Below, piece after piece: positions 2,180-19,462 of a stretch of DNA of 64,000 bases (positions are counted from its first letter, which is position 1; every line of letters begins with the position of its first letter). Made by a program: the position numbers and the translations under genes. Origin of the DNA: Caldithrix abyssi DSM 13497. Its GTDB lineage: Bacteria > Calditrichota > Calditrichia > Calditrichales > Calditrichaceae. Location: contig NZ_CP018099.1 of the NCBI RefSeq assembly GCF_001886815.1, forward strand, positions 1,920,501 through 1,984,500. Reading direction: 5' to 3'. The notes under the pieces are model-generated. The model was not told the origin of the DNA, did no database searches, and saw only the letters and a list, made by a program, of their open reading frames with translations.

Positions 2180-2828
2180 CTTGCTGACTGGCTCCTTGTT
2201 TAGATTTTTTCTGTTTCAATTTTTTTAACAACTCTTCTTTTTTTCTTTTCAACTCTTCCAATCTGCGTTTTTCGGCGCGGATGGCTTTGTATTCTTCGTA
2301 GCGCGCTTTACGGGCCGCAAAGGCCGCTTCTTCGATATCTTTGTAATAACCCTTGTTGCCAAAGTAATAAGCGCCCAGGCCGCCAAACACTAAAATACTA
2401 ACGTTGGCCAGCAAAGGTTGGTCGATGGAGTAGAGACCAATGCCCACGCCGGTGCCAACGGCTCCTCCTAAAAAGAGCCCCGCCATTCCGTAAAGAATGG
2501 TGTTTTTAGGGGATTTGTGTTGTTTGATCTCATGGATTGGAATAGGATTTCCTTCAAAATCAAAATATCTGCTAATTTTGACGATGTATTTAATATCGTC
2601 AAACTTGATTAAACTCTTTTTGTGTGTGCGCGCATCCACATAAATCAGATTGACCGAATCGCCCGTGACAATGATGCCTTCCCGGTATGTTCCGTCTTTC
2701 AAATTAATGCGCACAGAGGCCTGAGATTCCGGGTCGGTTAACGAAACATAGCGCTTCCCGCTGCAGGCCAGAATGCTGAACAAAAGCCCCAGCAGAACAA
2801 TCCACTTAAAAAACTTGATGCCATTCAT
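2172..2828 (-). CDS. Putative lipoprotein with glycine-rich hydrophobic hairpin and coiled-coil tail
   Basis: No named family recognised. The 218-residue product begins with a lipoprotein signal (lipobox LFSILAC, Cys22), so the mature protein is probably lipid-anchored in the envelope. A beta-rich region follows to about residue 100, ending near [19 protein letters not shown]. Next come two hydrophobic glycine-rich segments (about 111-135 and 140-158). The tail from about 165 is highly charged and rich in Lys, Glu and Arg, and should form a coiled coil. It lies 37 bp downstream of divIVA and overlaps punA by 8 bp, so it belongs to the same transcript. RBS AAGGGTGGAAAC precedes the ATG. The double hydrophobic stretch resembles glycine-zipper segments of envelope proteins, but that is only a visual resemblance. 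Confidence 0.8.
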
Positions 2829-2865
2829 GTTTCCACCCTTTATGTTAATGAATTCCCTCTCTCCC

Positions 2866-3576
2866 TCATTTTAAAAAATCGTCCAGATCATCGCCGAAGA
2901 TGTCTTTAAAAAAATCGGCGCTCTTTTTTGAATTTTTTTCTTCAGACGATTTCGCCTGCTTTTTTTCTGGTTTCGGGGCGGCAGGCGTTTTGTCGTTCTG
3001 AATATTAATTTCCGGTTCTTTTTCCGCAGGAGCCGTTTTTTTTGTGGATTTTTCCTGAACCGGCAGGGCGCGTTTAGAACCTTTAAACACCTGGTGTGTT
3101 TTGCTTTTTAATTTATCCAGTTGCGCATCGTCCGTTTCTAAAATTTCCAGCAGTTCCAGTTGCGAAGAGAGCAAATAACGCAGGCGCGTGATTAAGGAAT
3201 CTTTTTGCTGTTTTAAGTCGGCCAGTTCGCGTTTTAAAACGCTCACTTCCGCACGCGCATCTTCGATCATCTTTTTAGCCTGTACTTCGGCTTCGCGCCG
3301 GATCAATTCCGCTTCCTTTTCCGAAGTCTTTTTGGACAGTTGAGAGGTTTGTTGTACTTCGTACAGGGTTTGTTTTAACGTCTTTTCCACGTCCTTGTAA
3401 TGGCGTAGTTCCGCCTTTAAAGCGCCGACTTCTTTTTCCAGACGCTGGTTGTTTTGCAACAGACGTTCGTATTCTTCCGCCACATATTCGAGATAGGTTT
3501 CCACTTCCACGCGGTCGTAGCCGCGCAGGGCGGTTTTAAATTCCTGCTTTTTGATGTCGATGGGTGTTAACTTCAA
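2866..3576 (-). CDS. divIVA: DivIVA-domain protein
   Basis: A 236-residue coiled-coil protein. Its first 40 residues match the DivIVA N-terminal membrane/curvature-sensing domain (LTPIDIKKQEFKTALRGYD, then EVETYLEYVAEEYERLL). A long coiled coil runs to about residue 165. A Lys/Pro-rich, probably disordered linker follows, then a short C-terminal acidic amphipathic motif (ADFFKDIFGDDLDDFLK). DivIVA proteins mark cell poles or septa and scaffold growth or division proteins. The start is TTG at 3576 with GGGAGG five bases upstream, and its TTGA shares bases with the yggS stop. The yggS-divIVA-ileS order is also found in Gram-positive division clusters, which supports the call. The function in this organism is inferred. 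Confidence 0.88.
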   Translation of the reverse strand: MKLTPIDIKKQEFKTALRGYDRVEVETYLEYVAEEYERLLQNNQRLEKEVGALKAELRHYKDVEKTLKQTLYEVQQTSQLSKKTSEKEAELIRREAEVQAKKMIEDARAEVSVLKRELADLKQQKDSLITRLRYLLSSQLELLEILETDDAQLDKLKSKTHQVFKGSKRALPVQEKSTKKTAPAEKEPEINIQNDKTPAAPKPEKKQAKSSEEKNSKKSADFFKDIFGDDLDDFLK

Positions 3577-4271
3577 GGTTGCCTCCCTCTTGCGCCAAAA
3601 ATGGCCGTTCCGATCCTGATGTGCGTGCTGCCTTCTTCAATGGCGATTTCAAAATCGCCGCTCATGCCCATGGATAACACAGGCAACTCCACACCAGAAG
3701 CCGTTTTTTGCAAATCTTCTCGCAAATTGTAAAGTTGACGAAAGGCCTGGCGAATTTTTTGCCGATCGTCGCTTAACGGGCCAATGGTCATCAATCCCTT
3801 AATATGTAAATGTTTTAAGCCTGCAATTTTTTCAAAAGCCTCCGGCGTTTTTTCGGGCGCAAAGCCGAATTTGGAGCTTTCGCCGCTGACGTTGACTTCC
3901 AGCAGAACCGGAATGGTCAGCGACCGCTTTTCGGCGAATTGATCCAGCGCTTCGGCCAGCCGCAGGGAATCGACCGAATGAATCAAAACCGCACGCGGCG
4001 CCACGTATTTAATTTTATTGGTTTGCAGGTGCCCGATAAAATGCCATTGAATATCTTCCGGTAAAAGCCGGGCTTTATCTCTTAGCTCCTGCGGGCGGTT
4101 TTCGCCAAACACCCTTAAGCCGGCGTCGTAGGCCTGCTTAATAACTTCGGGCGGCATGGTTTTGCTTACCGCCACCAGCGTTATTTCTTCTCGGCTTCTT
4201 CCGGCGCGCTGGCAGGCGGCCTCTATTCGCTCGTATATCCGTGCAATTGCATCTTTAATAAGATTCTCCAT
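3573..4271 (-). CDS. yggS: YggS/PLPBP family pyridoxal-phosphate-binding protein
   Basis: PLP homeostasis protein of the COG0325 family: a TIM-barrel that binds PLP without known catalytic turnover. At 232 residues it is full length. The PLP lysine is Lys37 in TLVAVSKTMP. Other family motifs are FGENRPQEL, WHFIGHLQTNK, IHSVDSLRLAE and the C-terminal LSMGMSGDFEIAIEEGSTHIRIG. It is the first gene of the leftward operon. No Shine-Dalgarno sequence is visible before the ATG. A TTG-N20-TAATTTTG promoter-like motif ends only seven bases upstream, so the mRNA may be leaderless. Confidence 0.95.
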   Translation of the reverse strand: MENLIKDAIARIYERIEAACQRAGRSREEITLVAVSKTMPPEVIKQAYDAGLRVFGENRPQELRDKARLLPEDIQWHFIGHLQTNKIKYVAPRAVLIHSVDSLRLAEALDQFAEKRSLTIPVLLEVNVSGESSKFGFAPEKTPEAFEKIAGLKHLHIKGLMTIGPLSDDRQKIRQAFRQLYNLREDLQKTASGVELPVLSMGMSGDFEIAIEEGSTHIRIGTAIFGARGRQP

Positions 4272-4278
4272 AAATCAT

Positions 4279-4309
4279 CAAAATTAAAGAATTAATTGGT
4301 CGAATGCAA
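4279..4309 (-). promoter_or_regulatory. Candidate promoter of the yggS operon (TTG-N20-TAATTTTG)
   Basis: On the reverse strand a TTG (4309-4307) is followed after exactly 20 bases by TAATTTTG (4286-4279). This matches the Bacteroidetes vegetative promoter pattern of a -33 TTG and a -7 TAnnTTTG. The yggS ATG begins seven bases later. The match is seen directly; its activity is inferred. Confidence 0.4.
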
Positions 4310-4353
4310 TTCAGCTTCATTTGTATTGGACAGGGATTGCGTTGAGAACTTTG

Positions 4354-4662
4354 CTATTTGTCCGTCTGGAAGCCAATGTTTTTATCTTTATGATCCATGC
4401 CGTGTATGACGATTTCGCCAAACTGCGCTTCATATTTGCGAATGTTTTCTTCCAGAGCTTTAAGCAGCGATTTGGCGTGTTGCGGAGCCATTACAATCCT
4501 GGCGTAAACTTTTGCTTTTGGCTTTCCGGGCAAAATTCGAGTAAAATCAAAAACAAATTCGGCCGGAGAGTGTGAAATGAGCACCAGATTGCTGTAAATG
4601 CCTTCGGCTTCTTGCTCGCCCAGTTCGATGTTGATTTGCTTTTCAGGAAATTGTTGTCCCAT
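4354..4662 (-). CDS. DUF3467 domain protein
   Basis: A 102-residue cytosolic protein matching the DUF3467 pattern. GIYSNLVLISHSPAEFVFDF lies in the first half, followed by AKVYARIVMAPQHAKSLLKAL and an N-x2-KYE helix. The biochemical role of this family is unknown. The start is ATG at 4662 with AAGGAGG seven bases upstream. It is divergent from dnaG across a 100-bp intergenic region and lies 82 bp before yggS, so it probably has its own promoter but could read into the yggS operon. No signal peptide or metal motif is visible. Confidence 0.85.
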   Translation of the reverse strand: MGQQFPEKQINIELGEQEAEGIYSNLVLISHSPAEFVFDFTRILPGKPKAKVYARIVMAPQHAKSLLKALEENIRKYEAQFGEIVIHGMDHKDKNIGFQTDK

Positions 4663-4686
4663 TAGTCGCCTCCTTTTAACTTTAAA

Positions 4687-4719
4687 TTTGCTCTTGATGC
4701 TTAAAAGTGTTTAATTTAG
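4687..4719 (+). promoter_or_regulatory. Candidate dnaG promoter (weak match)
   Basis: TTTG at 4687-4690 is followed after 21 bases by TAATTTAG at 4712-4719, one mismatch from TAnnTTTG. It lies 43 bases before the dnaG ATG in the divergent DUF3467/dnaG region. This match is weaker than those at yggS and panD and rests on sequence pattern alone. Confidence 0.25.
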
Positions 4720-4762
4720 AAAGTAGAGCAATTGAAGTCAACTTAATATTTTTTAAATAATT

Positions 4763-6586
4763 ATGGGAAAAATCAATCCTTTAAAAATAGACGAGATTCG
4801 CGGCGCGGTTAATATTGTTCATTATATTTCGCGTTTTGTTTCTTTAAAGAAAGCCGGGCAAAACTACAAAGGTCTTTGCCCCTTTCATACGGAAAAGACG
4901 CCTTCCTTTGTGGTCAGTCCGGCCAAACAGATTTTTCACTGTTTCGGCTGCGGTAAGGGCGGCAATATCTACACTTTTATTATGGAGTACGAAAAGCTCT
5001 CTTTTTTTGAAGCCCTGCGCCGCGCGGCCGAATTTGCCGGCATTCCGCTTCCCGAAGAAGACCTGGAGGCCAAAACCAGAGAGCGCACATATTTCGAAAA
5101 ACTGTACGAGATCAATGAAACGGCTGCCCGCTATTTTGAAGACAATCTTTTTAAGCGTGAATTTAAAAACTGGCTGGATTATTTTAAACAACGTGGGCTT
5201 TCCGAGCGCACCATTAAAAAATTTCAACTGGGATATGCGCCCGATTCCAAATCCGGTTTGTTAGAAGTGTTTAAGAAAAAGAATGTGGACCTGGCCGAAG
5301 CTGAAAAATTGGGCCTGGTGGCCCGCAGTTTTTACAATGATGCTTTTATCGATAAGTTCAGACACCGCGTGATGTTCCCCTTTCATAATCTCAGCGGAAA
5401 AATTATTGGTTTTGGCGGACGGCAATTGCGCAGCGACCAGCAGCCTAAATATCTTAACAGCCCCGAAAGCCCCATTTACAAAAAGGGTTCCATTCTCTAC
5501 GGATTGTACCAGGCGATCAACCGCATTCGCGAGGAAGACCTGGTTATTCTGGTGGAAGGCTATTTTGATCTGCTGCAACTGGTAGAGCACGGGCAAACCA
5601 ATGTGGTGGCAACTTCCGGAACGGCGCTAACCGACTACCAGGCGCGATTAATCGGGCGCTACACGCAAAAGGTATTGCTGCTTTACGACGGCGACGACGC
5701 CGGGCGCAAGGCAGCCCTGCGCAACGGCTATATTCTGGAGAAGAACGGTCTTAACGCCTTTATTGCCGCGCTGCCGGCGGACGAAGACCCCGACTCGTTT
5801 TTACGCAAAAACGGTCTAAAAGCGCTGGAACCTTATTTGAAATCGCAATTGACCCCGGTGGAATTTGAAATCAATATGTTTTATGAGGAAAACCCCAAAC
5901 CCTCGTTGCAGGCTAAAAATCAATTTGTCTCGCAATTGCTGGAAAATTTGCTGGAATTGAACGACCCTTTAAAAACCGGACTCTATCTGCCGCTCGTCTC
6001 AGACCTTTTGCAGATTAACGAAGACCTGCTGGTTGAACAATTTAAAAAGCTGGAAAGGCAGAGGCGGCGCTGGAAGAAGGCTGAAACCGTTTCGCCAGAA
6101 ATTCCGACAGAAACCGAAGATCGCGTACACCGCGGCCAATACCTGGCCGAGGCCGGCGTGGTCTATTTGCTGCTCAACGGCGAAGAAAGAGTCAGAAATT
6201 TTCTCCTCTCCCAGCTCTCTTATGATCTTTTCGAGAATCCGTCGTTTATTGAAGTGTACGAGGCCATTTTAAACGAACTGGATGAGGTGGGCAAAGTCGA
6301 TAAAAGCGAGATTCTTTCACAATTTCAGGAGGCGGTCGACGTGCAGGCGGCGCTTTCGGCGCTGGATTTAATGGAGTTTAACGATCCGTTGAAGTTTGCC
6401 AGAGATTGTATTTTTCAGCTTAAAAAATGGACGCTGGAAAAACAGGCGCAGGAAATTCAGGAATTAATCCGCAGCGATCATGAATCGCAGGATGCCCTGG
6501 CGCATTACACGGTGGAGTTGATGCGTGTGCGCAAAGAATTGAATCGGTTAGTAAAAGATCACCGCGCAGGCAGCGGAGATTTTTAA
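4763..6586 (+). CDS. dnaG: DNA primase
   Basis: Synthesises RNA primers at the replication fork. The 607-residue product has the full DnaG order. An N-terminal CHC2 zinc finger has ligands Cys39, His42, Cys60 and Cys63 (CPFHTEKTPSF, CFGCGKGG). The catalytic core contains FPFHNLSGKIIGFGGR, and the TOPRIM domain has LVEGYFDLL, ATSGTAL and LLYDGDDAGRKAA, which carry the metal-binding acidic residues. A C-terminal helicase-interaction region follows from about residue 430. The ATG lacks a strong Shine-Dalgarno; the upstream DNA is AT-rich (TTTTTTAAATAATT). No rpsU or rpoD neighbour is present, unlike the enterobacterial macromolecular synthesis operon, so it appears to be transcribed alone. Confidence 0.97.
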   Translation: MGKINPLKIDEIRGAVNIVHYISRFVSLKKAGQNYKGLCPFHTEKTPSFVVSPAKQIFHCFGCGKGGNIYTFIMEYEKLSFFEALRRAAEFAGIPLPEEDLEAKTRERTYFEKLYEINETAARYFEDNLFKREFKNWLDYFKQRGLSERTIKKFQLGYAPDSKSGLLEVFKKKNVDLAEAEKLGLVARSFYNDAFIDKFRHRVMFPFHNLSGKIIGFGGRQLRSDQQPKYLNSPESPIYKKGSILYGLYQAINRIREEDLVILVEGYFDLLQLVEHGQTNVVATSGTALTDYQARLIGRYTQKVLLLYDGDDAGRKAALRNGYILEKNGLNAFIAALPADEDPDSFLRKNGLKALEPYLKSQLTPVEFEINMFYEENPKPSLQAKNQFVSQLLENLLELNDPLKTGLYLPLVSDLLQINEDLLVEQFKKLERQRRRWKKAETVSPEIPTETEDRVHRGQYLAEAGVVYLLLNGEERVRNFLLSQLSYDLFENPSFIEVYEAILNELDEVGKVDKSEILSQFQEAVDVQAALSALDLMEFNDPLKFARDCIFQLKKWTLEKQAQEIQELIRSDHESQDALAHYTVELMRVRKELNRLVKDHRAGSGDF

Positions 6587-13545: not shown

Positions 13546-13902
13546 ATGGAACGAAATTTATATTTTTATCGTGCCATTGTGCAAAGAGTGTACGACGGCG
13601 ACACCTGCACGGTGGATATTGATCTGGGGCTCAAAACCTGGATCAGGGGCGAACGCATTCGACTGGCGCGAATCGACGCCCCGGAACTGCGCGGCGACGA
13701 ACGGGAAGACGGTTTACGAGCCAGGGATTTTTTGCGCGCTTTAATTGACGGCCGCGAGGTGATTATTCAAACTCTGAAAGATCGCACCGGACGCTACGGT
13801 CGTTACATCGCCGAAATCTGGCTGGTGGAAGAAGACGGTCGCTGGTTAAACGTCAACGATGTGCTGGTAAAAAAGGGATTCGCCGAATATGTTGAATATT
13901 AA
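13546..13902 (+). CDS. Staphylococcal-nuclease-like (SNase) domain protein
   Basis: A 118-residue protein consisting of one SNase OB-fold domain. Visible active-site features are VYDGDTCTVDID (calcium-binding Asp region), IRLARIDAPEL (Arg, Asp and Glu in the order of Staphylococcus Arg35/Asp40/Glu43), and GRYGRYIAEIW (Arg87 equivalent). All catalytic positions are therefore kept. There is no signal peptide, so unlike secreted thermonuclease it appears cytosolic. The first methionine is used; upstream is only AATTAAA with GGGA nearby. It is followed 31 bp later by the lipoprotein peptidase gene and may be cotranscribed. Nuclease activity is probable from the residues; the biological role is unknown. 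Confidence 0.88.
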   Translation: MERNLYFYRAIVQRVYDGDTCTVDIDLGLKTWIRGERIRLARIDAPELRGDEREDGLRARDFLRALIDGREVIIQTLKDRTGRYGRYIAEIWLVEEDGRWLNVNDVLVKKGFAEYVEY

Positions 13903-13933
13903 GGCAGGGGTTAATCAAACGGTGGAGGGCGCC

Positions 13934-15604
13934 ATGCGTTTAATGGGCATTCTAATCTTGAGTATCTTGTTATTCGTTTCTTGCCAAAAACAGAACAGGG
14001 AGGAAGCATTGCAGCAATTTATTGAACAACATGTTGCGAAAATAAAACCGCTGGAAAAAGCGGCCAAAGAAGCATACTGGGAAGCGGCCACAACCGGCAG
14101 GCAAGAAGCCTATAAAAAATCGGCCGAACTGGAATTGAAAATCCGTAAAATCTATAGCAATCCGCAAGAGTTCGCATTTCTTAAAGATTTAAAAACATCC
14201 AAAAAAATTAAAGATCCATTGCTAAAGCGCCAATTGCAAATTCTTTACAATCGCTACCTGCAAAACCAGATCGATTCCACGCTTTTGCGCCAGATGGTGG
14301 AGCTGAGTTCCAAAATTGAAGAGAAGTTCAGCACCTTTCGGCCAACCTTAAATGGCAAAAAAGTGACCAATAACGAAATTTTAGAAATTCTTAAAAACGA
14401 AACGGACAACGCTCGGCGTAAGGCCGCCTGGGAGGCCAGCAAGCAGGTCGGTCGCGTGGTGGCGGATGACATCATTAAACTGGTAAAGTTGCGTAATCAG
14501 GCCGCGCAAAAATTAGGATTCGAAAATTACCACACCATGTCTCTGGAGCTTTCCGAACAACGCGTTAAGCAAATCGATCGCATCATGTGGGATGTGGCCG
14601 AGTACACGCTGGAGCCTTTTTACAACTCCAAAAGAGCGCTGGATCAGTTGCTGGCCCAAAAGTACCATATCTCTGTGCAGCAGTTGCGTCCCTGGCACTA
14701 CCACGATCCCTTTTTTCAGGAAACGCCACAGGTCTTCCAGGTTAATCTGGATAAATATTATGAGAACAATGATGTCAAAGAGATCGCAGTAAAGTTTTTT
14801 GCCGGGATTGAATTGCCTGTGGAATCCATCCTGGCGAAGAGCGATCTTTACGAGCGCGATGGCAAAAATCCCCACGCCTTTTGCGAGGACTTTGACAGAG
14901 AAGGCGATGTGCGTATTCTTTGCAATTTAAAAAATAACGAAAGCTGGATGGAAACCCTTTTGCATGAGCTGGGCCATGCCGTTTACGATAAATACAACGA
15001 TCCTTCTGTGCCCTATTTGCTGCGCGAGCCGGCCCATATCTTTACCACAGAAGGCGTGGCCATGCTCTTCGGGCGCCTCAGCCGCAACCCTTTTTGGATG
15101 CAGCAGGTTTTGAATTTGTCTGATGAAGTACGCCAGCAAATCGAACCCGATTTGAATCGTTACATGCGCTTAAAACAGCTGATCTTTGCCCGCTGGGCAC
15201 TGGTGATGTATAATTTTGAAAAGGCGCTTTACAAAAATCCCGATCGCAATCTCAATAAATTATGGTGGAAAATGGTTCAACAATATCAACTGGTTACCCC
15301 TCCGGAGAACAGAGATGAGCCGGACTGGGCCTCTAAAATTCATTTTGCCATTGCCCCCTGTTACTACCACAACTACATGTTAGGCGAACTATTTGCCTCG
15401 CAATTGCACATGTACATCACGCATCATATTTACAAAACTAAAAACTGGCAAAAGGTCACGTACGTTAATGACCCGCGCGTAGGACAATACTTAAAAGAAA
15501 AGGTCTTTAAACCGGGGAAAACCTATCCCTGGAATCAGATGATCGAAAAAGCCACCGGCAGCAAGTTGAAGGTGGATTACTTTGCCAGCCAGTTTCTTGA
15601 ATAA
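13934..15604 (+). CDS. Lipid-anchored gluzincin metallopeptidase (M2/M3-like peptidyl-dipeptidase)
   Basis: Probably a zinc carboxydipeptidase at the cell envelope. The start is ATG 13934 with GGAGGG nine bases upstream, giving 556 residues and a lipoprotein signal (lipobox LLFVSC, Cys17). An upstream in-frame start at 13889 would bury the signal. The zinc motif HELGH is at residues 344-348, and the third ligand is probably Glu373 in TTEGVAM, a spacing like that of angiotensin-converting enzyme and thimet oligopeptidase. The helical C-terminal part with IHFAIAPCYYHNYMLGELFA supports the M2 (ACE-like) family more than M3. It follows the SNase gene closely. The substrate is unknown. Confidence 0.85.
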   Translation: MRLMGILILSILLFVSCQKQNREEALQQFIEQHVAKIKPLEKAAKEAYWEAATTGRQEAYKKSAELELKIRKIYSNPQEFAFLKDLKTSKKIKDPLLKRQLQILYNRYLQNQIDSTLLRQMVELSSKIEEKFSTFRPTLNGKKVTNNEILEILKNETDNARRKAAWEASKQVGRVVADDIIKLVKLRNQAAQKLGFENYHTMSLELSEQRVKQIDRIMWDVAEYTLEPFYNSKRALDQLLAQKYHISVQQLRPWHYHDPFFQETPQVFQVNLDKYYENNDVKEIAVKFFAGIELPVESILAKSDLYERDGKNPHAFCEDFDREGDVRILCNLKNNESWMETLLHELGHAVYDKYNDPSVPYLLREPAHIFTTEGVAMLFGRLSRNPFWMQQVLNLSDEVRQQIEPDLNRYMRLKQLIFARWALVMYNFEKALYKNPDRNLNKLWWKMVQQYQLVTPPENRDEPDWASKIHFAIAPCYYHNYMLGELFASQLHMYITHHIYKTKNWQKVTYVNDPRVGQYLKEKVFKPGKTYPWNQMIEKATGSKLKVDYFASQFLE

Positions 15605-15655: not shown

Positions 15656-17362
15656 ATGAGAACGATGGCGCTCTGGTTAATGTTGACGTTAGGTTTGATT
15701 ACGGCCTGCCAGAAAGGGCCGGAAGCGGATCTGATCTTGCTCAATGGTCGAATTGTAACCCTGGATTCTCACAACACCATTGCTCAGGCGCTTGCTGTAA
15801 AAGGCGATCGGATTTTAGCCGTGGGCAAAACCGCGGAGATCGAAAAAATGAAAGGAGAAACCACGCGCGTCATCGATCTTAAAGGCGCGCTGGTCACGCC
15901 GGGCCTCATCGAAGGTCACGCCCACTTTTTGGGATTGGGTGAAGCGCTGCTGCGATTGGACCTCACGCGCACGCGCAGCTGGCAGGACATTGTGGATAGC
16001 GTTGCCCATCGAGCGGCGCAGGCTAAAGCGGGCGAGTGGATTATCGGCCGGGGCTGGCACCAGGAAAAGTGGGACAGCCGTCCCAAAAAATTGGTCGAAG
16101 GCTATCCGGTTCATGACGCTTTAAGTCAGGTTTCTCCGGAAAATCCCGTAATTTTAACCCATGCCAGCGGCCATGCCCTGTTTATTAACCGCAAGGCGAT
16201 GGAAATGGCCGGTATTACGCGTCAAACGCCCAATCCGAAGGGCGGCAAAATCATACGCGATGCGCGGGGGAATCCCACCGGCGTACTGCTGGAAAACGCC
16301 ATGGACCTGGTATGGAAGGTTTACCACCAGCAGGTTGGCGAAAATCCACAACAGCAAAAATTGCGCGCCGCAAAAAAAGCGATGCAAGCCTGCCTTAAAA
16401 ACGGCATTACCAGCTTTCATGACGCCGGCGCCTCTTTTGCCGATATTGAGTTTTTTAAGCGTCTGGCCGAAACAGAACAGTTGAAAGTGCGCCTGTATGT
16501 GATGATTTTAGAGCCCGATCAGCGCTTGCGGCAAATGTTAAGTCAATACCGTCTGATCGGCTACGCCAATAACTTTTTAACGGTGCGCGCCATCAAACGC
16601 TACATGGATGGAGCCCTGGGCTCGCACGGGGCATGGCTGTTTAAACCGTACGACGACGCTCCCGGCAGCGTGGGCTATAATGTCATCTCGCCAGATTCCC
16701 TGCTGGCCACGGCGCGTATCGCCATCAAACACGGATTTCAGTTGTGCACGCACGCTATTGGCGACCGCGCCAATCATGAAGTGCTGGACGTTTACGAGCG
16801 GGTCTTTAAAGAAAATCCGGATAAACAAGATTTACGCTGGCGCATTGAACACGCCCAGTTGATTCATCCCGTTGACGTACCCCGTTTTGCCAGCCTGGGC
16901 GTGATTGCGGCCATGCAGGGCATTCACTGCACATCGGACGGGCCCTGGGTGGAACAGCGCATCGGCGAAAAACGCGCCCGCGAAGAGGCCTACCTGTGGC
17001 AAACGCTCTGGCAAAGCGGCGCGGTGGTGGCCAACGGCACCGATGCTCCAGTGGAGCCCATTGATCCCCTGGCCAATTTTTACGCTCTAATTACACGACG
17101 CATGAAAAACGGAGCCTACTTTTATCCGGAACAGAGCCTGGATGCCATGCAGGCGCTAAAAGCCTACACTTACAATAATGCCTACGCCGCCTTTGAAGAG
17201 CAGTTAAAAGGCAGCCTGGAACCCGGCAAGCTGGCAGACGTAACCGTTTTTTCGCGCGATATTTTAAACGATCCGCCTTACAAAATTCCATCGACTAAGG
17301 TGCTTTACACCATCATCGGCGGAAAGATTGTTTACCAGGCGGCGGATCGAACGGTTGAATAG
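15656..17362 (+). CDS. YtcJ-like amidohydrolase lipoprotein
   Basis: Metal-dependent hydrolase of the amidohydrolase superfamily (amidohydrolase 3/YtcJ group). The 568-residue precursor has a lipobox at GLITAC (Cys18), so it acts at the envelope. Conserved parts in order are EGHAHFLGLG (metal HxH), THASGHALFINR, a probable metal-bridging region around RAIKRYMDGALGSHGAWL, LCTHAIGDRANHEVLD, WRIEHAQLI, and NGTDAPVEPIDPL with the catalytic Asp. The ATG has GAAGGAGGGTGATAAG upstream. It lies 51 bp after the peptidase gene, and the next gene is also a lipoprotein. YtcJ-type enzymes have poorly known substrates, so specificity is left open. Confidence 0.9.
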   Translation: MRTMALWLMLTLGLITACQKGPEADLILLNGRIVTLDSHNTIAQALAVKGDRILAVGKTAEIEKMKGETTRVIDLKGALVTPGLIEGHAHFLGLGEALLRLDLTRTRSWQDIVDSVAHRAAQAKAGEWIIGRGWHQEKWDSRPKKLVEGYPVHDALSQVSPENPVILTHASGHALFINRKAMEMAGITRQTPNPKGGKIIRDARGNPTGVLLENAMDLVWKVYHQQVGENPQQQKLRAAKKAMQACLKNGITSFHDAGASFADIEFFKRLAETEQLKVRLYVMILEPDQRLRQMLSQYRLIGYANNFLTVRAIKRYMDGALGSHGAWLFKPYDDAPGSVGYNVISPDSLLATARIAIKHGFQLCTHAIGDRANHEVLDVYERVFKENPDKQDLRWRIEHAQLIHPVDVPRFASLGVIAAMQGIHCTSDGPWVEQRIGEKRAREEAYLWQTLWQSGAVVANGTDAPVEPIDPLANFYALITRRMKNGAYFYPEQSLDAMQALKAYTYNNAYAAFEEQLKGSLEPGKLADVTVFSRDILNDPPYKIPSTKVLYTIIGGKIVYQAADRTVE

Positions 17363-17518
17363 GGAAAGGCCGGAGGAGAAAGAAGGGAAGGAAGTGAAGA
17401 GTGTATAGAGGGGAAAAGATGTTTTGCGGCTAATAGGAGAAGCTAAATTCCTAAACTCCTAACCCCCTAAACCCTTCCCATTCTTACCGGCCCATCAAAT
17501 CAATTTGGGAGGGCCAGA

Positions 17519-18634
17519 ATGAAAGTGAATAAGCGAATGTTCCTTTTTGCGCTGCTTTTTATCTTGCCGTTTGTCTGGCAGTGTACAAAGGAAGACGCGT
17601 CGATGGCACGGAAAAGCGTTGTACGGGCTCCGGTGGATACCGTGGGGTTTGCCCGGTACGCCTGGCAGATGGATTCGTTAATGAAGCGAATTCACCGTCT
17701 GCAAAACAAGCAGCTGCTAAACGCCATCATTCAGGGAAAAATCACGCCTCAAAGCGAATTTAAAGTCGCTGTTTGCCCGCACGACGACTACGGTTATGTA
17801 GGCTATCTCTATCCGGCGGTGATGGAAGGCATTAAAGCTAAAACGGTGATCATCTTTGGCGTGGCGCACAAAGCGCGATTGTTAAATCTGGAAGATCAAA
17901 TTATTTTTGATACCTATCCCGCCTGGCATGGCATTTACGGTCCCATTAAAGTTTCCGATATCCGCGAAGAGATTATCCGCGCGTTGCCGGAAGGCGTGTA
18001 CCAGATTAACGATTCCATGCAAACCATCGAACACTCGGTGGAAGCGCTGTTGCCCTTTTTGCAGTACTACCGAAGGGATCGTGAATTTGTTTCTATTCTG
18101 GTTCCCTACATGTCGTTTGAACGCATGCAAAAAATTGCCAAACCGCTGGCCAGAGCCATTGCAAAGGTGATGAAAAGCCGCAACTGGCAGTGGGGCAAAG
18201 ACCTGGCGCTTCTCATTAGCACCGACGCCGTGCACTACGGCGACAAAGACTGGGGTGGGAAAAATTTTGCTTATTACGGAACCGATTCCGCCGGCTACCA
18301 AAAAGCCGTGCAACACGAGATGGAGATCATCAATAGCTGTTTAAACGGCCCGCTGCAAGAAGAAAAGATCAGACGCTTTATGGAATTTACCGTGCAGCCG
18401 GACGATTTTCGTAAATACAAATGGACCTGGTGCGGGCGGTACTCCGTGCCTATGGGACTGGAAACGGCCTATTGGCTGGCTCATGAATTTAAACAGGATT
18501 TGCAGGGCCGATTGATCGGCTACGCCACCAGCATCGATCATACGCCGTTGCCTGTAGAGGATTTGCGCATGGGCTTTACCGCGCCGGCCCACGTGCGTCA
18601 CTGGGTTGGTTACGCGGCTCTGGGATGGGAGTAA
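17519..18634 (+). CDS. Lipid-anchored MEMO (AmmeMemoRadiSam protein B) homologue
   Basis: MEMO-family fold related to extradiol dioxygenases. The 371-residue product has a hydrophobic N-terminus ending in FVWQC (Cys22), a probable lipoprotein signal with an unusual Gln before Cys. The first metal-site histidine is in VCPHDDYGYVGYLYP (family PHAGY). A second is in IFGVAHKARL (GPSH region), and a third block is LLISTDAVHYGDKDW, corresponding to the SSDxxHYG motif. The usual partners AMMECR1 and the radical SAM protein are not nearby. Upstream is 156 bp of AT/purine-rich DNA; downstream the sirtuin gene starts six bases after the stop. An extracytoplasmic MEMO is not the commonly described form. 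Confidence 0.82.
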   Translation: MKVNKRMFLFALLFILPFVWQCTKEDASMARKSVVRAPVDTVGFARYAWQMDSLMKRIHRLQNKQLLNAIIQGKITPQSEFKVAVCPHDDYGYVGYLYPAVMEGIKAKTVIIFGVAHKARLLNLEDQIIFDTYPAWHGIYGPIKVSDIREEIIRALPEGVYQINDSMQTIEHSVEALLPFLQYYRRDREFVSILVPYMSFERMQKIAKPLARAIAKVMKSRNWQWGKDLALLISTDAVHYGDKDWGGKNFAYYGTDSAGYQKAVQHEMEIINSCLNGPLQEEKIRRFMEFTVQPDDFRKYKWTWCGRYSVPMGLETAYWLAHEFKQDLQGRLIGYATSIDHTPLPVEDLRMGFTAPAHVRHWVGYAALGWE

Positions 18635-18640
18635 TTTAAG

Positions 18641-19462
18641 ATGGAACAGGCATTGCAGCGCGCCAGACAGGCCATTAACGAAGCGCAGGCGGTGGTCATT
18701 GCCGCCGGAGCCGGGATGGGCGTTGATTCCGGCCTGCCGGATTTCCGCGGCAACGAAGGCTTCTGGAACAACTACCCCGTTGCCCGGCGGCTGGGGCTTT
18801 CGTTTGCCGATCTGGCCAATCCGCGCTGGTTTACGGAAAATCCAGAATTGGCCTGGGCTTTTTATGGTCATCGCCTAAATCTTTACCGCCAGACCCAACC
18901 TCACGAGGGATTTGCTTTGCTGCTTGAGTATGGGAAGCGATTGCCCGGCGGCTACTTTGTATTTACCTCTAATGTGGATGGCCAGTTTCAAAAAGCCGGC
19001 TTTGACGAAGAGCGCACGGTGGAAGTGCACGGTTCCATTCACCATTTGCAATGTGTCCGTCCTTGTGGAACCGATATTTGGTCGGCCGAGGGCACGGAGG
19101 TAAATATCGACATGGAGCGCTTTCGCGCTTTGCCGCCGTTGCCACGCTGCCCGCATTGTGGCGCTCTGGCTCGACCGAATATATTGATGTTTAACGACTG
19201 GCAGTGGCTTTCGCGGCGTACAGACGCTCAGGAAAGTCGTTTTAAAAACTGGTTGAAAGAAATCGATAAAAAAAATTTTAAACTGGTGATTATTGAGATT
19301 GGCGCCGGCACGGCGGTGCCCACGGTGCGCATTACCTGCGAACGGCTGGCCCAATGGCATCAGGGCACGCTGATTCGCATCAATCCGCGGGAAAGCTGGG
19401 TACCGGAGGGGCATGTCGGGATAGAAGGCGGAGCATTGAAAACACTCCGGCAATTACTTTAA
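18641..19462 (+). CDS. SIR2 family NAD-dependent deacylase (sirtuin)
   Basis: NAD-dependent protein lysine deacylase of 273 residues, apparently cytosolic. The NAD loop is AGAGMGVDSGLPDFRGNEGF (usual GAGxSxxSGIPDFR). The catalytic block FTSNVDGQFQKAGF replaces the typical TQNID, and the catalytic histidine is in VEVHGSIHHLQC. Zinc ligands are probably the cysteines in QCVRPCG and RCPHCGAL. IEIGAGTAVPTVR gives the second NAD contact. The variant motifs place it in a bacterial subgroup distinct from CobB. It starts six bases after the MEMO lipoprotein gene and is probably cotranscribed. The targets are unknown. Confidence 0.92.
   Translation: MEQALQRARQAINEAQAVVIAAGAGMGVDSGLPDFRGNEGFWNNYPVARRLGLSFADLANPRWFTENPELAWAFYGHRLNLYRQTQPHEGFALLLEYGKRLPGGYFVFTSNVDGQFQKAGFDEERTVEVHGSIHHLQCVRPCGTDIWSAEGTEVNIDMERFRALPPLPRCPHCGALARPNILMFNDWQWLSRRTDAQESRFKNWLKEIDKKNFKLVIIEIGAGTAVPTVRITCERLAQWHQGTLIRINPRESWVPEGHVGIEGGALKTLRQLL

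Follow-up and report, generated by a model that had tools for sequence, protein, structure and literature searches.

The window, a stretch of 64,000 nucleotides that corresponds to positions 1920501–1984500 of the single 4.98 Mb contig of the Caldithrix abyssi DSM 13497 genome, contains on its forward strand a gene of the MEMO family (17519..18634) that encodes a protein of 371 amino acids. A Shine-Dalgarno-like sequence, GGGAGGG (17507..17513), was read immediately 5' of its ATG start codon. Two genes on the same strand precede it, one for an M2/M3-type peptidase (13889..15604) and one for an amidohydrolase (15656..17362). The original prediction held that both encode lipoproteins, and lipoprotein-like starts are indeed seen in the window, ILLFVSC (from an internal Met) in the peptidase and LGLITAC in the amidohydrolase. 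Neither gene was seen adjoining this MEMO gene elsewhere, and both are absent beside the MEMO gene of two congeners (L036 and L037) within the sequence examined there; co-transcription with these upstream genes was considered and is not conserved in the two congeners. The peptidase frame (13889-15604) matches Peptidase_M2, the angiotensin-converting-enzyme family, with 108 bits. Downstream, a SIR2-family gene (18641..19462, forward strand; PF02146, 66 bits) starts six bases after the MEMO stop codon, as predicted, and is probably co-transcribed with the MEMO gene. The same gene lies directly 3' of MEMO in L036 and L037, which together with the window represent the three members of the genus having the MEMO gene, and no SIR2 match at E 1e-8 was found beside the MEMO gene in the other loci. 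A sirtuin partnership was therefore rejected as a family-wide feature, the linkage being one of genus level only. A scan for promoters and terminators gave results near shuffled expectation.

Assignment of the gene to the MEMO family, as originally proposed, was borne out by both profile scores and predicted structure. The open reading frame scores 73 bits against PF01875 (cut-off 27) and 72.4 bits against TIGR04336 (cut-off 26), compared with 237 and 237 bits for the other two MEMO proteins that the genome encodes. Because it exceeds both curated cut-offs, automatic annotation would name it AmmeMemoRadiSam system protein B. The AF2 model, built with a 59-row alignment as input, has a pLDDT of 94.7, and its fold is that of MEMO: the top structural match is human MEMO1 (7kq8; Z 30.0, rmsd 2.7, 278 residues aligned), followed by TK2203 (Z 17.8) and DesB (Z 17.3). 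Searches of the PDB with the window protein (phmmer) and with an alignment profile (A1) returned no MEMO, which only the fold search recovered. Human MEMO1 (PDB 7kq8 and 3bcz) thus shares the fold, although identity is 18% and the window protein is predicted to be exported.

The protein was described at the outset as carrying a hydrophobic N-terminal signal with a cysteine at position 22, a description that stands. Its N-terminus reads MKVNKRMFLFALLFILPFVWQC, in which a hydrophobic stretch is followed by Cys22 (17582..17584), the predicted lipidation site, so that residues M1-Q21 (17519..17581) constitute the predicted signal peptide. In an alignment of the window protein with seven relatives of 45-66% identity, Cys22 is invariant (8/8) and is the sole invariant column before R36; in the 59-row alignment (A2) it is present in 45 rows. 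A scan for relatives yielded 211 candidate stretches, of which 175 were confirmed and 80 kept; four Calditrichota loci brought the set to 84, the window excluded. N-termini could be read in 82 of these, which include the seven relatives just mentioned, the exceptions being L030, cut at a contig end, and L103, split in two frames. With start codons assigned by a rule biased towards hydrophobic N-termini, the mean hydropathy over 10 residues reaches 1.95 or more in every one of the 82; among 18 radical SAM N-termini lacking a Tat motif and treated similarly, most values were below 1 and one was 2.15. A lipobox-like cysteine was found by a strict rule in 58 of the 82, L046 being doubtful among these. 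Five of the other 24 (L051, L071, L072, L080 and L097) have a cysteine that the rule excluded, and 12 of the remaining 19 end, as judged by eye, like Sec signal peptides (e.g., ...LNAQ). That some species have lost the cysteine but kept the signal is a good indication that export is what matters. The genome encodes both signal peptidase II and TatC. Conservation over many species makes the exported, lipid-anchored reading well supported; the protein is very probably exported and, with good confidence, likely to be lipidated.

Residue equivalences to human MEMO1 were obtained by profile alignment to canonical MEMO proteins and alignment of that profile to MEMO1, with MEMO1 numbers counted on the alignments. 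Four histidines are conserved in 59 of 59 rows: H88, equivalent to MEMO1 H49 and part of the PHDDY motif (H88-D89-D90, 17780..17788, likewise 59/59); H117, equivalent to H81 (17867..17869); H172, equivalent to H131 (18032..18034); and H239, equivalent to H192. The last of these lies in a segment, D236 to H239 (18224..18235), that corresponds to MEMO1 D189 to H192 and in which D236 is also invariant (59/59). According to PMC11081632, the iron ligands of MEMO1 are H49, H81 and C244, with D189 and H192 nearby and not acting as ligands. The region of MEMO1 Q243/C244 falls at D340-H341 (18536..18541), which is not conserved (42/59 and 43/59); its placement relies on an extension of the canonical-MEMO alignment, which ends at I339, and on the MEMO1 profile alignment. 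The statement that metal-type histidines are kept thus held for the equivalents of H49, H81, H131 and H192, but the MEMO1-type ligand set is incomplete, the C244 position being variable. Class III extradiol dioxygenases (LigAB, DesB and aminophenol dioxygenase) have a related fold, at Z about 16-17, and the two histidine positions are shared with them, whereas their Glu ligand, as given in PMC11081632, lacks a conserved counterpart at the third-ligand position of the window protein.

Other residues set the protein and its relatives apart from canonical MEMO. The branch signatures are PHDDY, WxWCGR and HWVGY; the second appears in the window protein as WTWCGR (W302-R307, 18422..18439), with W302, W304, C305, G306 and R307 present in all 59 rows. 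H361 (18599..18601) is invariant in the branch (59/59), and none of the 11 canonical MEMO rows of the alignment has a histidine at its position; relative to human MEMO1, both PHDDY and H361 are additional signatures. Metal binding by the domain appears fairly probable from this pattern of conservation, and a metal-related role is plausible. As a guess, H361 might supply the replacement third ligand.

A tree of 53 MEMO sequences separated 21 branch members from 32 others with 100/100 support. The stem of the branch measures 3.28 changes per column in a tree rooted at its midpoint only, and L180, a long branch of the kind that the tree tool flags, joins beside this stem. Of 40 Calditrichota genomes, 10 carry a member of the branch, as do 40 of the 295 from the order of G078 (Bacteroidales). 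Taxon labels of the 80 kept relatives are mostly those of Bacteroidales and other Bacteroidota, with Calditrichota and five Chlorobiota; single relatives are labelled Neomarinimicrobiota, Aminicenantes, Ignavibacteriae and Alphaproteobacteria, and some of the labels may be binning errors. Members of the clade are thus found mostly in Bacteroidota and Calditrichota. Judged from these sequences, the lipoprotein MEMO is a widespread, separate and deep branch of the MEMO family. Burroughs et al. are said to have described, in 2019, five Memo clade families and their gene contexts. The open-access literature covered here, most subscription papers lying outside its scope, yielded no description of a signal-bearing MEMO or of a Tat-signal AmmeMemoRadiSam enzyme. 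PMC7159879 cites Burroughs et al. (2019) on the Memo clade families.

The gene was also said to stand without its usual partners, which proved right locally and wrong for the genome as a whole. Members of TIGR04336/Pfam Memo are expected beside AMMECR1 and radical SAM genes, whereas the window gene, placed in a separate clade and bearing a lipoprotein signal, is flanked by the amidohydrolase and SIR2 genes. At E 1e-5 the 84 loci, of which 47 extend for 3 kb or more to either side, gave no match to AMMECR1, radical SAM, the fusion or canonical MEMO. With open reading frames picked by our own procedure, no cluster of neighbours within four genes recurs in more than 8 of the 84 loci, and 20 cluster representatives examined in Pfam (HD domain, FTHFS, BrkB, OsmC, MscL and others) are each lineage-local. 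In L077 (2895-3776) and six loci of the same cluster, the frame of an HD-domain gene, identified by Pfam on L077, overlaps the 3' end of the lipoprotein-MEMO gene; the frames were taken from stop to stop and belong to one Bacteroidales lineage.

Elsewhere in the genome, an ordinary cytosolic-type set comprises a MEMO of 277 aa, an AMMECR1 of 194 aa and a radical SAM protein of 362 aa. AMMECR1 and radical SAM genes therefore share a genome with the lipoprotein MEMO here, a situation that is not universal among carriers (G029 has no radical SAM match at E 1e-30). A second, exported-looking set is scattered through the genome. One component is a second TIGR04337 radical SAM protein with a twin-arginine signal (C1:104750-105751 of the genome, G000; 4257-5435, reverse strand, of L187), whose N-terminus is LNRRQFLTAASSACVLLGLP and whose gene directly follows one for a DUF362 protein that bears a similar signal. 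The other is a fusion of MEMO and AMMECR1 that bears a signal peptide (C1:4931558-4932949; 2547-4055, reverse strand, of L032), so the window gene is not the only one to encode a signal-bearing MEMO. An open reading frame near the fusion (L253 2632-3591) has an RRSFLK signal and resembles the DUF362 type by eye only.

Exported-looking components recur in other genomes. Of 66 distinct readable radical SAM proteins in the fetched loci, 35 have [RK]RxF/L with a hydrophobic stretch after it, against 31 without, which is not a population rate because loci were picked partly for long frames; L204 was placed with the 31 since its start is missing from the sequence, although the motif is visible, and one more protein is partial. 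Many Bacteroidales proteins have KR in place of RR, making Tat use there less certain, and the Pfam TAT_signal model matched the L149 copy and not that of the window genome. In Bacteroidales the Tat-type radical SAM and the signal-bearing fusion usually share a locus: a fusion match is present in 22, and an AMMECR1 match in two more, of the 28 loci that were fetched on account of long frames (L149-L176). In 8 of 12 loci listed, an open reading frame of 709-737 aa lies between or beside the two genes, and the three tested contain a Spermine_synth domain. These three Bacteroidales proteins (L151 1231-3357, L164 5333-7474 and L175 1644-3782) are of about 710 aa and have a hydrophobic N-terminal part. 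One Calditrichota family has stand-alone AMMECR1 proteins with a hydrophobic N-terminus (L219 1363-2025, L221 1477-2172 and L224 1327-2016), and three tandem TIGR04337 radical SAM matches lie at C75:47951-51474 of G142.

The distribution of the lipoprotein MEMO was compared with that of radical SAM genes. TIGR04337 matches of either type exceed the cut-off in 41 of 49 genomes with lipoprotein MEMO (8 lack one), versus 4 of 14 named controls. For the 40 Calditrichota genomes, in which N-termini were read, the Tat-type radical SAM is present in 9/10 carriers versus 8/30 non-carriers (Fisher 7e-4), with G022, cut at a contig start and showing the motif, scored as present and the truncated G010 as absent. 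For the order of G078, frame length served as a proxy for the Tat type in place of read signals: frames of 366 aa or more occur, among the matches listed, in 26/40 carriers versus 50/255 other genomes (Fisher 1.6e-8), and radical SAM matches at E 1e-65 in 33/40 versus 109/255, again among the matches listed. The p-values are uncorrected for ancestry and, since related genomes do not count as independent, overstate the case. In four genomes (loci L086, L094, L104 and L106), the lipoprotein-MEMO gene lies about 8, 15, 12 and 22 kb, respectively, from an exported-locus-type radical SAM gene, apparently on the same contig as judged by its length; the contig number agrees in three, and the genomes may be of related species. 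The radical SAM copy at L163, one of these four, lacks a Tat signal despite its exported-type locus. We conclude that the relationship between lipoprotein MEMO and Tat-type radical SAM is one of association, not dependence.

These data bear directly on whether the protein acts by itself. It could be a stand-alone envelope metalloprotein engaged in metal scavenging, redox protection or dioxygenase-like chemistry, unrelated to AmmeMemoRadiSam, its co-occurrence with radical SAM genes reflecting shared lineage or habitat. The missing partner genes in the 84 loci, neighbours that change by lineage and the deep separation of the clade are all consistent with this explanation, as are carriers without a radical SAM match: the single-contig genome G029 yields none to TIGR04337 at E 1e-30, and 7/40 carriers in the order of G078 have none at E 1e-65 among the matches listed. 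The association seen in two groups, and the radical SAM genes about 8-22 kb away in four genomes, argue against it, leaving a stand-alone role a serious possibility to which we give somewhat less than an even chance. We regard it as very improbable that the domain remains cytoplasmic, its hydrophobic N-terminal stretch being either an anchor that is never cleaved or the product of a misassigned start codon. In favour of this, Cys22 follows a Gln, an unusual residue at that place in a lipobox, and AAGGAAG lies upstream of Met29, an internal start that would delete the signal; against it, Met29 is not conserved, Cys22 is invariant in the eight-sequence alignment and most relatives retain a lipobox-like cysteine. 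An alternative start of this kind, which the original prediction recognized as fatal to it, is accordingly not favoured. The Gln at -1 falls outside what we take to be the PROSITE lipoprotein pattern and recurs among the 58 strict-rule relatives only in L027; apart from it, the protein has both the signal peptide and the lipobox cysteine of a lipoprotein.

The reading to which we lean, by a modest degree, is that of an envelope metalloprotein that possibly works with the exported AmmeMemoRadiSam pathway. The protein would be exported by Sec and processed by signal peptidase II, and conserved signals suggest that Cys22 would anchor the domain either at the outer membrane or at the external side of the cytoplasmic membrane. 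There, an extradiol-dioxygenase-like pocket would probably bind a redox metal such as iron through H88 and H117, with D236 and H239 assisting the site and a third ligand peculiar to the branch, which may be the invariant H361. Its most likely task would be to handle a metal or substrate in the envelope, possibly in the pathway of the Tat-type radical SAM and the signal-bearing MEMO-AMMECR1 fusion, a functional link that we put forward tentatively. A radical SAM enzyme outside the cytoplasm would be surprising, as a supply of SAM is not expected there. More speculatively, and doubtful on present evidence, Bacteroidota and Calditrichota may run a second, extracytoplasmic edition of AmmeMemoRadiSam, in which a Tat-exported radical SAM, a signal-bearing MEMO-AMMECR1 fusion, a membrane spermine-synthase-like or DUF362 partner and the lipoprotein MEMO would jointly modify an envelope molecule. 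Of the overall interpretation with which the analysis began, export very probably stands, while isolation from partners applies only locally.

What MEMO and the AmmeMemoRadiSam system do has long been an open question. An exported branch with invariant residues of its own, together with an exported-looking radical SAM protein, points to possible envelope substrates and offers tractable bacterial test cases. The interest of the finding lies chiefly in its value as a pointer to a possible extracytoplasmic edition of the AmmeMemoRadiSam system.
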